A stretch of DNA of 64,000 nt, from assembly GCF_011387195.1 (NCBI RefSeq), contig NZ_CP046919.1, forward strand, positions 372,001 to 436,000, written 5' to 3'. This document shows positions 2,822 through 55,358 of this stretch, piece after piece (position 1 is the stretch's first letter; the number at the start of each line of letters is the position of its first letter). The DNA comes from Streptococcus ruminicola. Its GTDB lineage: Bacteria; Bacillota; Bacilli; Lactobacillales; Streptococcaceae. The notes under the pieces were generated by a model that saw only the letters and a list, made by a program, of their open reading frames with translations, was not told the DNA's origin and made no database searches. The position numbers and the translations under genes were made by a program.

Positions 2822-2865
2822 TCTATAACCTCCAAAAATCTAGTGAATCTATTATATCAAAAAAA

Positions 2866-2928
2866 ATATCCAGTGGATATTTTTTCACGAGCCTGAAAAT
2901 TAAAAAGCGAGTTATATCCTGTGGATAC
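2866..2928 (+). repeat. 49-bp-type hairpin repeat, dimeric copy (array A)
   Basis: Two small dyads, ATATCCAGTGGATAT at 2866-2880 and ATCCTGTGGAT at 2916-2926, are joined by a spacer reading TTTTTTCACGAGCC, then a GAAAATTAAAAAGCGAG-like stretch. The spacer matches the spacers of the arrays at 26281 and 55191, here in the opposite orientation relative to the flanking minus-strand genes. It is 48 bp dyad to dyad. The first dyad is flanked by A and T runs, so it can terminate transcription from cvfB on the minus strand. Confidence 0.75.
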
Positions 2929-25428: not shown

Positions 25429-26256
25429 ATGAAACTCATTTCATGGAATATTGACTCAATCAATGCTGCTTTAACTAGTGACTCAGCTAGAGCTGTTCTT
25501 TCACGCGCCGTCATTGATACTTTGGTAGCTGAGAATGCTGATATCATAGCTATCCAAGAAACTAAACTCTCAGCAAAAGGACCTACAAAGAAACACCTGC
25601 AAATTTTGGGTGACTACTTCCCAGACTATGACATTTCTTGGCGTTCTTCTGTTGAACCAGCCAGAAAAGGCTACGCTGGGACAATGTTTCTTTATAAAAA
25701 AGCCTTAACACCAGAAATTTCTTTCCCAGAAATCGGTGCTCCAGATACCATGGATAGTGAAGGACGCATTATTACACTTGAATTTGATAAGTTTTTCGTC
25801 ACACAAGTTTACACACCAAATGCTGGCGACGGGCTTAAACGCCTGGCTGAACGCCAACTTTGGGATGAAAAATACGCCCAATACCTAGTTGAACTTGACC
25901 AAAAGAAACCTGTTCTAGCTACTGGTGACTACAACGTTGCTCATCAAGAAATCGACCTTGCCAATCCAAATTCAAACCGCCGTTCTGCTGGATTTACCGA
26001 TGAAGAACGTGCTGGCTTTACTAACTTGCTGGCTAAAGGGTTCACAGATACTTTCCGTCACCTTCATGGTAACATTCCAAACGTATACAGCTGGTGGGCT
26101 CAACGTAGTAAGACAAGTAAAATTAACAACACTGGCTGGCGCATTGACTACTGGCTCACTTCAAACCGCATTGCAGATAAAGTAACAAAATCAGAAATGA
26201 TTGACTCAGGCGCACGCCAAGACCACACACCAATTATCTTGGAAATTGATTTATAA
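25429..26256 (+). CDS. exoA: Exodeoxyribonuclease III / AP endonuclease
   Basis: A 275-aa Mg2+-dependent DNA repair nuclease of the ExoIII/ExoA family. It shows MKLISWNIDSINAAL, the QETKLS catalytic Glu, the ATGDYNVAHQEIDLANP segment and the C-terminal GWRIDYWLTSNR and RQDHTPI motifs with the catalytic Asp-His pair. It cuts at abasic sites and removes 3' blocks. Upstream GGGATAAG is a modest ribosome site. It is a single gene, convergent with the ABC permease across the array B repeats. Confidence 0.96.
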   Translation: MKLISWNIDSINAALTSDSARAVLSRAVIDTLVAENADIIAIQETKLSAKGPTKKHLQILGDYFPDYDISWRSSVEPARKGYAGTMFLYKKALTPEISFPEIGAPDTMDSEGRIITLEFDKFFVTQVYTPNAGDGLKRLAERQLWDEKYAQYLVELDQKKPVLATGDYNVAHQEIDLANPNSNRRSAGFTDEERAGFTNLLAKGFTDTFRHLHGNIPNVYSWWAQRSKTSKINNTGWRIDYWLTSNRIADKVTKSEMIDSGARQDHTPIILEIDL

Positions 26257-26280
26257 GTGGTGTGATTGGCAGGTTCAACT

Positions 26281-26441
26281 TTTCACCGGACCTAACTCGA
26301 TTTTTTATTTCTTGGCTCGTGAAAAAACTGCCCACTGGGCTTGACTCGCTTTTCTATTTCTCGGCTCGTGAAAAAACAGTCCACTGGACCTAACTCGCTT
26401 TTTTATTTCTTGGCTCGTGAAAAAACTGCCCACTGGGCAGT
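26281..26441 (-). repeat. 49-bp tandem hairpin repeat (array B)
   Basis: Dyads GCCCACTGGGC at 26330-26340, GTCCACTGGAC at 26379-26389 and GCCCACTGGGC at 26428-26438 are exactly 49 bases apart; a degenerate fourth (CACCGGAC) lies at 26281-26291. Spacers read TTGACTCGCTTTTCTATTTC then GGCTCGTGAAAAAA with few changes. The last dyad is flanked by A and T runs and is the likely terminator of the minus-strand ABC permease and of exoA. Confidence 0.9.
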
Positions 26442-26445
26442 TTTT

Positions 26446-28719
26446 TTACTCAACTCCTTTTAAAGCTTCAACCATATTAATGGTTTTAATTTTATGGCTG
26501 ATAATGAGGGTTGTGACTGCAGATGTCACCCAGACTAGGACACTGGCAATCAAGAGAACTTGCCAAGTGATGTAGGCTGTGTATTCAATACGAATGGTTG
26601 AGAAGGTAGCCACATAGCATCTCAAGAACCAGATTCCCATTGGAATTCCCAGAATCCAACCAATTGATGTTGTCATGAGATTTTCAATCATGGTAATCAA
26701 TTGTAAATTTTTCTTAGAAAAACCGAGAACTTGAAGCGTTGCATAATCACGCATCCTTTCGACAAAATTCAGAGAACCAAGGTTATAGAGAACAACAATG
26801 ACAAGTAGCAAAGCAAAACCGATAATCATCAAAAACACACTCATCAAACTATTCACAAAATCATAAGCATTCTTTTCTTGATCTGATTTATTAATGACCG
26901 ATAAGATATTTTGGTCATTTTTAATATCATCTTTTGACACGTTCTTATCCACCAACAAGGTTTGCGGATTAAATTTGCCACCAGCTGCCTCAAAGGTTTC
27001 TGACCTGATGTAGGCTCCTTGGTTAGTCTCACTTGTGACAATCCCTTTAACTTCAAATGAGTAAGATTTACCGTCTTGATAAGGAGTTACTTTCAGAGTT
27101 TCTCCTTTTTTGATACCAGCTAATTCCGCAAAACGATTGGTAACATAAATACCGCCTTCTTCAATTGCTTTGTTGTCAGCAGTTCTTGCATTAACAAAAT
27201 CACCATCACTAACAATAATCAAGAGGCGATTATAACCATCATCTTTTGAAAAACGAGCTCGGCTAATTTGTACCCCTTGACCTTGATAAGTTTTAGCTGC
27301 TTGATTGTAATTAGCAACCGTCAAGCGTTTAGCGTATGAAAAATCAGTATTGTACGCTTTATCCACCAAATGATTCATTGAAATTGGCATTCCGACACCA
27401 GCAATCAAAAGCATCATACTTCCTGCAACACCAACGATTCCCATGAGCACCCTCACCCTGTTAATAAAGGCATCACGAATCGCCCATTTGCTCTCATCAG
27501 AAATACGATTCCAAAAAAGAGGAAGTTTTTCAAGAAACACATGGTGAACTTTCTTTGTTTTCCCTCGTAAGAAAACAGCTGGTAATCCTTTAATGACCTG
27601 ACGAGATGCCAAATAAGCTGACAAGGTACAAATAAAAATGACAAGCAAAATGACAACTAACGATGACCATGAATAAGCAATCTGCCAATGTGGCAAGGTG
27701 AACATCGTCTTTTGTGTCTCAAGCACAAAAAGCGACATAAAAGGAGAGATAGCTGCCCCAGCCAAAGCTCCAAAACTTCCAACTAATAAGCCAAAAGAAA
27801 TATAATGCCAAGTGATTTGCCCATTTGAATAGCCCAAAGCTTTAATGACTGCAATTTCTTTGGTTTGACTTTCAATCAGGCGTCGAATGGTCGTAAACAT
27901 GGCAAGAATTGCTAAAAGGATAAAGATGAAAGAGAAAAGATAAGACAGATTTCGAATTTGTCCAACGCGTCCAGTCGCTTCTGACACTTCTGTCAACGTT
28001 TTCTGGTTGTCATAAGAAAGTAAATGTTCCCCTAAAATCTCTTCAATATCGTGTCTGATGTCATCCTTTTTGGCATAAATATCGATAGCATTATAAGTTG
28101 TGCGACCTTTCGTTACCTTGGCTAAGGCATTTTCTGACACATAGCCGTAAGCATAATTCTTAGAATTTGGTGCTAAATACTCAATACTTCCCGTAAAATA
28201 AATCTTATCTGCTGACTCAACCAAACCTTTAATCGGAAAATGAACGGTTTGATTAGCAATAACAAGACTAACATCATCACCAAGCGTCAAATGATTTTTT
28301 TCCGCAAAATTCCTATCTAACCAAATGCCTTCAGAATCATTATCAAAGTTTTTCCCTTTATCAACAGTAATCACTTTTTTAGCCGATTCATCAAACGATT
28401 CTAACGTTAGATACTTTTCTGAATCACCCTTAAGATCAACCTTCGCTAGAAGCTTTGTCTTAGCATCAACCCTATCCACGCAAGGTAGGGCTTTTATGTC
28501 TTTCATTTGATTGTTGCTAATAGCATCCGCTTGAAGCCAAACCGTAGGCAGGTGCGAATCTGAGATAAAAGTATCTAAACTTTTCTCCAAACCATGCCAA
28601 GTCCCCTGCAAACCAACAAAAATCAGCACACTTAACAAGGACATCAAAAACACTGAAAAGAATTGTTGCCAATGACGTCTGATATCCCGTCTGAGTTTTA
28701 AATTAAGATATTTCATCAT
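26446..28719 (-). CDS. FtsX-family ABC transporter permease
   Basis: A 757-aa permease with an N-terminal membrane helix (about 18-38), a large outer domain to about 250, three helices (about 255-385), a cytoplasmic loop, a second helix with another outer domain (about 425-620), and three final helices. The two FtsX cores are ILLAILAMFTTIRRLIESQTKEIAVIKALGYS and LLLVIVVLYNLGSLNFVERMRDYATLQVLGFSKK. Such MacB/FtsX-type pumps move peptides or lipids or act mechanically on the envelope. It is third in a unit with its ATPase and a small AAA ATPase. Confidence 0.92.
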   Translation of the reverse strand: MMKYLNLKLRRDIRRHWQQFFSVFLMSLLSVLIFVGLQGTWHGLEKSLDTFISDSHLPTVWLQADAISNNQMKDIKALPCVDRVDAKTKLLAKVDLKGDSEKYLTLESFDESAKKVITVDKGKNFDNDSEGIWLDRNFAEKNHLTLGDDVSLVIANQTVHFPIKGLVESADKIYFTGSIEYLAPNSKNYAYGYVSENALAKVTKGRTTYNAIDIYAKKDDIRHDIEEILGEHLLSYDNQKTLTEVSEATGRVGQIRNLSYLFSFIFILLAILAMFTTIRRLIESQTKEIAVIKALGYSNGQITWHYISFGLLVGSFGALAGAAISPFMSLFVLETQKTMFTLPHWQIAYSWSSLVVILLVIFICTLSAYLASRQVIKGLPAVFLRGKTKKVHHVFLEKLPLFWNRISDESKWAIRDAFINRVRVLMGIVGVAGSMMLLIAGVGMPISMNHLVDKAYNTDFSYAKRLTVANYNQAAKTYQGQGVQISRARFSKDDGYNRLLIIVSDGDFVNARTADNKAIEEGGIYVTNRFAELAGIKKGETLKVTPYQDGKSYSFEVKGIVTSETNQGAYIRSETFEAAGGKFNPQTLLVDKNVSKDDIKNDQNILSVINKSDQEKNAYDFVNSLMSVFLMIIGFALLLVIVVLYNLGSLNFVERMRDYATLQVLGFSKKNLQLITMIENLMTTSIGWILGIPMGIWFLRCYVATFSTIRIEYTAYITWQVLLIASVLVWVTSAVTTLIISHKIKTINMVEALKGVE

Positions 28720-55190: not shown

Positions 55191-55354
55191 ACAGCCCAAT
55201 GGACTTGATTCGCTTTTCTATTTTCTGGTTCATGAAAAAACAGCCCAGTGGACCTTAATCGCTTCCCTATTTTCAGGCTCATGAAAAAACAGCCCAGTGG
55301 GCTTAATTCGCTCTTCTATTTTCGGGCTCATGAAAAAACAGCCCAGTGGGCTGT
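55191..55354 (-). repeat. 49-bp tandem hairpin repeat (array C)
   Basis: Four cores begin at 55194, 55243, 55292 and 55341, exactly 49 bases apart: GCCCAATGGAC, GCCCAGTGGAC, GCCCAGTGGGC and GCCCAGTGGGC. Spacers carry CGCTTTTCTATTTTC and GGCTCATGAAAAAA. The unit nearest murJ has the perfect dyad ACAGCCCAGTGGGCTGT followed by T and is the murJ terminator; units further away have imperfect arms. Confidence 0.9.
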
Positions 55355-55358
55355 TTTT

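Follow-up and report, generated by a model that had tools for sequence, protein, structure and literature searches.

The 49-bp tandem repeat described here is probably one array of a genus-wide, small interspersed repeat of Streptococcus that is built on an intrinsic terminator and grows by local duplication. We found it in a 64,000-nucleotide stretch of the Streptococcus ruminicola genome (the window) as array B, which comprises three 49-bp units and a degenerate fourth. This tandem layout had been predicted from the letters and is borne out by TRF, which reports a period of 49 with 3.2 copies, 83% matches, and zero indels at positions 26284-26438; ungapped copies start exactly 49 apart, twice. 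On the model strand, which for array B is the minus strand, one unit reads HP1, TTTTTT, C, ACGAGC-N14-GCGAGT (HP2), and then the next HP1. Each unit therefore holds two dyads: HP1 (YCC-AST-GGR, with the conserved core CCASTGG), followed by T6, and HP2, whose six pairs include a tandem G.A/A.G step. The features of array B and its flanks are as follows.

26279-26449, minus as model strand: array B, three 49-bp units and a degenerate fourth
26279..26293, minus strand: degenerate distal HP1
26295..26320, minus strand: HP2 of unit 1, with the 3′ arm altered to TCGAGT
26328..26342, minus strand: HP1 of internal unit 1, GCCC/GGGC
26344..26369, minus strand: HP2 of unit 2
26377..26391, minus strand: HP1 of internal unit 2, GTCC/GGAC, then T6 on the minus strand
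26393..26418, minus strand: HP2 of unit 3, ACGAGC-N14-GCGAGT
26426..26440, minus strand: HP1 of the end unit, a full hairpin resembling a terminator in both directions (26417-26449 with its A and T flanks)
25429..26256, plus strand: gene that we take to be an exoA-like exonuclease gene, ending ahead of array B
26446..28719, minus strand: presumed ABC permease-like gene, its end adjoining the putative terminator of array B

The HP1 dyads of array B read GCCC-ACT-GGGC, GTCC-ACT-GGAC, and GCCC-ACT-GGGC, and the first copy is degenerate (CACCGGAC). In the last unit, AAAAAACTGCCCACTGGGCAGTTTTTTT, HP1 lies between A and T runs and adjoins the stop codon of the permease-like gene. The original prediction described an 11-bp dyad; the dyad is present, with arms of only 4 to 5 bp, so that 11 is its length in nucleotides and not in base pairs. 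It also described a conserved spacer between hairpins. The spacer in fact contains a second covarying dyad, HP2, while parts of HP2 and the T6-C tract are conserved at least as much as the hairpin HP1 in the unit alignment.

The end unit has the makeup of an intrinsic terminator, i.e., a stable GC-rich hairpin and a T run. Its hairpin folds at −21.4 kcal/mol on the plus strand and −17.2 kcal/mol on the minus strand (z = −7.4 and −6.0) beside T6 and T7 runs, and it lies between convergent genes that end at 26256 (+) and 26446 (−), in agreement with the terminator role proposed earlier for this unit. Judging from sequence and folding, an end unit beside a gene would be a complete bidirectional terminator that stops transcription. 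The internal HP1 copies fold at only −4.6 and −3.5 kcal/mol and have T6 on the minus strand only; such extra units would at best provide weak, one-directional back-up termination. When positions 25900-26900 were scanned for terminators by a simple method, one site was flagged, in an internal unit (26390-26378, minus strand), which is not above chance (shuffled mean, 1.0). The scan did not flag the end unit, whose T run sits within the stem.

The HP1 stem ranges from 4 to 14 bp across units. In 75 comparisons of neighboring units, HP1 pair 4 showed 11 paired double changes (at 10 loci), 10 one-sided changes, and 0 unpaired double changes. Pairs 1, 2, and 3 did worse, with 0, 6, and 2 paired double changes, 34, 16, and 9 one-sided changes, and 6, 7, and 5 unpaired double changes, respectively. 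The paired arm change that had suggested a conserved hairpin thus holds at pair 4 and fails in the outer pairs, which indicates that internal units do not preserve the outer stem, as expected if the long stem belongs to end units only. In a parsimony count over 261 units, with the tree derived from the very sequences, themselves short, whose changes were counted, paired double changes made up 2/3, 5/5, 5/6, 4/4, 0, and 0 of all double changes at HP1 pairs 1 to 6. The conservation of the inner part of HP1 as a paired structure is well supported.

Pairing was assessed on several further sets of units. For the covariance model, 68 units were chosen from 106, omitting near-duplicates and units whose arms are Watson-Crick throughout around a 16-base loop. 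In this alignment, 73.7% of cells pair (68.3 shuffled), the covariation score is 0.230 (0.138 shuffled), and there are 53 double-change cells (18.4±3.1 shuffled); none of 500 shuffles was as high for any of these measures. The statistically supported pairing on which the predicted hairpins had been staked was therefore found with more units aligned. Measures that are robust to relatedness were unremarkable in these 68 units, with 5 pairs against 3.9 (102/500) and 14 types against 13.3 (204/500). Sliding the partner by −2 gave 6 such pairs, one above the true structure, but only 37.0% paired cells. Among 94 unique units, the HP2 arms form 3.93 Watson-Crick pairs, compared with 3.41±0.06 when arms are re-dealt (highest of 1,000 shuffles, 3.60).

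We assembled a larger set by running a sequence-only profile on 120 fetched, mostly top-scoring loci together with the 47 earlier loci, three home loci, and the window, which gave 459 matches at a score of ≥20, 412 of them parsed, and 246 unique units. At HP2 pair 2, these units have C-G in 124 cases, T-A in 66, T.G in 39, and C.A in 6, a wobble bias suggesting that the model strand is the one that pairs. The bias is the same at pair 5 (12 G.T and 6 A.C); pairs 1 and 6 disagree (5 T.G and 10 A.C; 9 T.G and 16 C.A). Where at least three of the four other HP2 pairs were standard (n = 226), the two middle pairs were GA/AG in 181 units, both standard in 21, mixed in 7, and contained another letter in 17. 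The tandem G.A/A.G mismatch thus changes to standard pairs as a block (P = 1.7 × 10−22 by Fisher's test, with shared descent ignored). In 151 comparisons of neighboring units, HP2 pairs 1 and 2 showed 20 (14 loci) and 23 (17 loci) paired double changes, 18 and 29 one-sided changes, and 4 unpaired double changes each, which are not independent events because units may have been shuffled whole. On the parsimony tree of 261 units described above, paired double changes made up 1/2, 1/1, 0, 0, 2/2, and 3/3 of all double changes at HP2 pairs 1 to 6; double changes at pair 2 were no more than expected, and none of the 14 top-ranked column pairs out of 861 belonged to the structure, many of them joining adjacent columns. 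Overall, HP2 pairing is supported by the arm classes and the block switch, with few independent events.

Two other readings of the linker were rejected. CGAG at a 20-bp spacing could be a DNA-binding direct repeat, but TTGCGC/GCGCAA, TTGCAC/GTGCAA, and TTGCCT/AGGCAA show that its variants take the inverted form and not the direct one. Nor do the arms pair across HP1 rather than within the linker, as S. suis arrays alternate linker classes that are each self-complementary.

The predicted stability of HP2 is low. For three units, the RNA folding energies of the HP2 regions are no lower than −0.5, −0.7, and −0.3 kcal/mol, no better than shuffles, and HP2 pairs appear only in the first. The opposite strand folds at −1.1, −1.5, and −3.3 kcal/mol with different pairs, and one HP2 unit folded as DNA gave 0 on both strands. 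Watson-Crick variants of HP2 reach −7.9, −8.0, and −9.1 kcal/mol (z = −0.6, −1.8, and −1.6). The fold of the whole of array B (z = −2.8 on the minus strand and −3.2 on the plus strand as RNA; −3.6 on the minus strand as DNA) is uninformative about a single unit, since it is largely driven by pairing between arms of different units. In RNA and DNA structure work, 5′-CGAG-3′ on both arms is a favorable setting for sheared tandem G.A pairs, and the energy model may undervalue such pairs in HP2. HP2 may have a partner that stabilizes it. Given the covariation, with its few independent events, HP2 appears to be kept as a base-paired form of one strand, most likely because the folded strand is recognized by something or serves the element's own spread. 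With a covarying structure and an unusual tandem G.A step in hand, the partner, if any, can be sought.

The family has further members close to array B. A pattern search of the home genome gave 12 matches at 5 places and 0 for the reversed pattern, so the array B repeat exceeds chance. Two more members lie in the window.

55192..55358, minus strand: array A, same family, with three HP2 linkers and HP1 or an HP1 remnant at each end
2861..2916, plus strand: single unit between the end (2986) of a presumably cvfB-like gene and the start (2821) of a presumably msrA-like gene

With the covariance model, five of the seven units in the window score 61 to 80 bits. The middle unit of each array scores 14 to 16 bits in the window run, where matches overlap, and 46.3 and 68.2 bits in the whole-genome run. 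The home genome has 23 matches at an E value of ≤0.01, several of which are reverse readings of the same terminators.

The unit is dispersed between loci and between species. In GTDB genomes, 58 stretches match the pattern, and 47 are from records named Streptococcus, including equinus, vicugnae, gallolyticus, suis, cuniculi, azizii, acidominimus, ovis, varani, and ratti; the other 11 are single matches in other organisms and look like chance. The covariance model matches 239 of 284 Streptococcus genomes at an E value of ≤10−4. As bare terminators read in reverse reach 22 to 31 bits in the window, we use the stricter count of 219/284 genomes with a best E value of ≤10−7, which leaves out 20 weak ones. 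Matches per genome are lower bounds, as no more than about 19 candidates were scored in each, and part of the matching genomes may hold only a copy inside a transposase gene (see below). The original prediction would have fallen had related genomes held no further copies; they are common. In an order-wide sample, matches at an E value of ≤10−6 came from 42/295 genomes and from one genus out of 74. The idea that the unit is plasmid or phage cargo was rejected: the plasmid collection gave no match and the phage collection gave a single one (see below). Thirteen consecutive Streptococcus genomes (G184-G196) are absent from the genomes with a match and are perhaps a clade without the repeat.

We next consider where the units lie. 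They are mostly at gene 3′ ends, in both orientations. After deduplication, a simple ORF finder called both flanking genes for 126 arrays and lacked one flank for another 8. Of the 126, 46 are convergent, 46 are downstream of a gene that transcribes the model strand, 28 are downstream of a gene that transcribes the other strand, and 6 are apparently divergent. A first count of 47 loci plus the window, in which a few arrays were doubled by reverse readings, gave 16 convergent, 15 and 14 codirectional, and 0 divergent cases. The convergent setting noted for array B is thus correct there and is one context of several. When the 5′ gene is on the model strand (113 arrays), HP2 starts a median of 27 nt from the gene's end, which means that HP1 adjoins the stop codon. 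Within arrays, units are in direct tandem and not in alternating inversion, and 217 of 250 steps between units are 48 to 53 bp (the remainder are 95 to 153).

Orthologous sites differ in the number of units that they carry (0, 1, 2, 3, or 6). At site A, for which we read 30 loci by eye, arrays in the model orientation have 3, 1, 2, and 3 linkers (87 to 100% protein identity), arrays in the opposite orientation have 6, 3, and 2 linkers (74 to 77%), two loci have decayed remnants (92 to 93%), and 21 have no visible unit at the site. The covariance model confirmed the seven arrays, missed the two remnants, and found a unit elsewhere in 1 of the 21 (L118, 54.7 bits). At site B, five comparable genomes, home included, have 3, 3, 1, 0, and 0 linkers, the two zeros carrying an unrelated terminator; in the other six genomes, one flank only was matched. 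At site 2861, 8 of 10 relatives have units or remnants and the remaining two have an unrelated terminator-like sequence. A comparison of copy number, which the original prediction had proposed for strains, thus reveals different numbers among relatives at both site A (0 to 6) and site B (0 to 3). Linkers are also more alike within arrays (identity, 0.865) than between other arrays of the same genome (0.720) or other genomes (0.678), with higher identity within than between arrays in 19 of 20 genomes. These copy number differences and the within-array likeness suggest that arrays grow locally, and extra units probably arise by local duplication at ∼49 bp.

Terminators are usually seen as local and independently evolving. 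Here, a repeat family that carries a terminator-like hairpin is found at the ends of genes in a large part of a genus. Its number and orientation differ from one relative to another, and it occupies positions at which some relatives have unrelated terminators, so that terminator turnover can be observed directly.

The 64-kb window has 0 matches to Rfam families above the gathering score, and we found no description of the unit in the open-licence literature, whether by idea or by four short sequence words. As these searches gave no match, we regard it as a new variety of small interspersed palindromic repeat, apparently undescribed and distinguished by an internal terminator, tandem growth, and a tandem G.A dyad. 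Ordinary streptococcal intrinsic terminators resemble HP1 with its A and T tracts, but the unit has a conserved core and a conserved HP2 at many unrelated loci. REP and BIME elements form tandem arrays with imperfect stems in alternating orientation, and RAYTs are thought to move REPs. In the accessible part of PMC2817692, REP and BIME elements are extragenic palindromes. The unit shares this character, the tandem arrays, and the imperfect stems; it differs in its direct orientation, the terminator within the unit, and the lack of a consistent Y1 partner.

Judged on their descriptions, SPRITE and BOX are the nearest streptococcal relatives in kind. As described in the accessible parts of PMC3049150, SPRITE combines an 18-bp duplex with a long tract of ∼48% U, occurs in 30 copies in one pneumococcus with few elsewhere, and is rare outside S. 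pneumoniae and S. mitis. By that description, the two are alike in being small, interspersed, and terminator-like, near gene 3′ ends, with AAAA/TTTT ends. The unit is set apart by its 4- to 14-bp stem, T6 to T7 runs, second dyad, and tandem arrangement, as well as its range of 219/284 Streptococcus genomes, so the earlier remark that the layout is not that of SPRITE holds against this account. BOX, according to the accessible parts of PMC3049150 and PMC2828477, has a variable number of boxB modules between boxA and boxC, or boxE and boxF in S. suis, and inversion and expansion or reduction at corresponding sites are reported. BOX so described is similar in lying between streptococcal genes and in carrying an internal module whose number varies. 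In contrast to BOX in these descriptions, we saw no shared ends but HP1 in the arrays read by eye, and a terminator-like hairpin closes the array. The parts of PMC2267715 and PMC2828477 that are accessible do not describe this unit.

Other explanations predict some of the same observations. Replication slippage at hairpins might multiply ordinary terminators, with quasi-palindrome template switching instead of selection maintaining the complementarity of HP2. The likeness within arrays, the regular step, the weak HP2 stability, and the occurrence of units in either orientation all fit, yet one linker is found again and again at unrelated loci within a single genus and in 0 of the other 73 genera sampled, and template switching should convert the tandem G.A to Watson-Crick pairs, whereas 181/226 units retain it; we consider this explanation unlikely. 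The units could also be RNA regulatory elements, i.e., repeated attenuators or 3′-end structures that set how much read-through occurs or how stable the upstream gene's mRNA is. HP1-T6 does lie immediately behind stop codons, and there is a mild bias toward transcription of the model strand in codirectional arrays (46 versus 28; n = 74; P = 0.047). However, those 28 arrays face the opposite way, both orientations are found at orthologous site A, and a strong first terminator would leave HP2 rarely transcribed, all of which makes a regulatory RNA very unlikely.

In a REP/BIME-like scenario, HP2 would be a single-stranded DNA hairpin, and a Y1 (HUH) transposase would recognize it and mobilize the unit. 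Such a role would suit the location at gene ends and the excess of G.T over A.C in HP2 in contexts ++ (19:9), +− (28:5), and −− (6:3), with 1:1 in −+. In three genomes, the unit begins 3 bases behind a Y1 domain match, and in 11 of 21 Y1 loci (a set chosen partly for this) it lies inside what we take from a Pfam Y1_Tnp match to be an IS200-like tnpA (L245-L249, L252-L255, L260, and L261; 53.8 to 62.0 bits). Against this stand the direct, nonalternating units and the distribution of Y1 itself: the domain is present in 122 of 197 genomes, the repeat-rich genomes G039, G148, G214, and G236 (at least 11, 11, 15, and 7 matches, respectively, at an E value of ≤10−4) have none, and the sole match in the home genome is a partial frame with a stop. 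Assuming an origin at base 1, 63 matches showed no lagging-strand preference (model strand leading in 38 and lagging in 25). We thus rejected Y1 as an obligatory partner and find a Y1-moved unit quite improbable; as the presence of Y1 genes in a genome does not follow that of the repeat, we make no claim that Y1 moves it. It is similarly doubtful that the unit is a self-spreading terminator cassette in which single-stranded HP2 with sheared G.A pairs is recognized by a putative streptococcal factor that copies and expands units at gene ends. If true, a mobile repeat would supply and replace transcription terminators across a bacterial genus. The interspersed, terminator-based repeat with local duplication remains our preferred reading.

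The copies inside tnpA indicate that a whole HP1-HP2 unit entered a gene at least once and that an insertion sequence now carries it. The insertion point is directly behind the KYIQ codons, through which uninterrupted copies (e.g., L262 and L264) read. MITEs are marked by terminal inverted repeats and target site duplications. In tnpA, the unit takes the place of ∼7 bases without a visible duplication; the filled and empty flanks of site B are too different for such a comparison. L252 has consensus HP2 arms, L259 has only the start of the unit, and L251 has a different hairpin at that place. Several IS200-like tnpA copies end a few codons past the presumed catalytic tyrosine, via the unit, the hairpin (L251), or a simple stop codon, which is at or beside the same place in L250, L256, L257, and L258.

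The phage collection gave one match (L295; MK448536.1:11057-11138). It belongs to the S. suis 05ZYH33 satellite phage Javan552, which carries a piece of a unit array near its end, as if the attachment site of the element adjoined one. In S. azizii, a 14-unit array with a 50-bp step (L024, 2520-3234) lies immediately upstream of a promoter-like sequence and a 1,470-bp ORF. S. suis and some relatives (L014, L030, L035-L037, L042, L044, L051, L058, L059, and L061-L063) have an array beside a 240-bp gene that is presumably rpsR-like. In some of these arrays, two hairpin classes of linkers alternate, and the numbers vary between lineages. The repeat is a possible variable-number marker for strain typing, and the array beside the rpsR-like gene could be used in this way.
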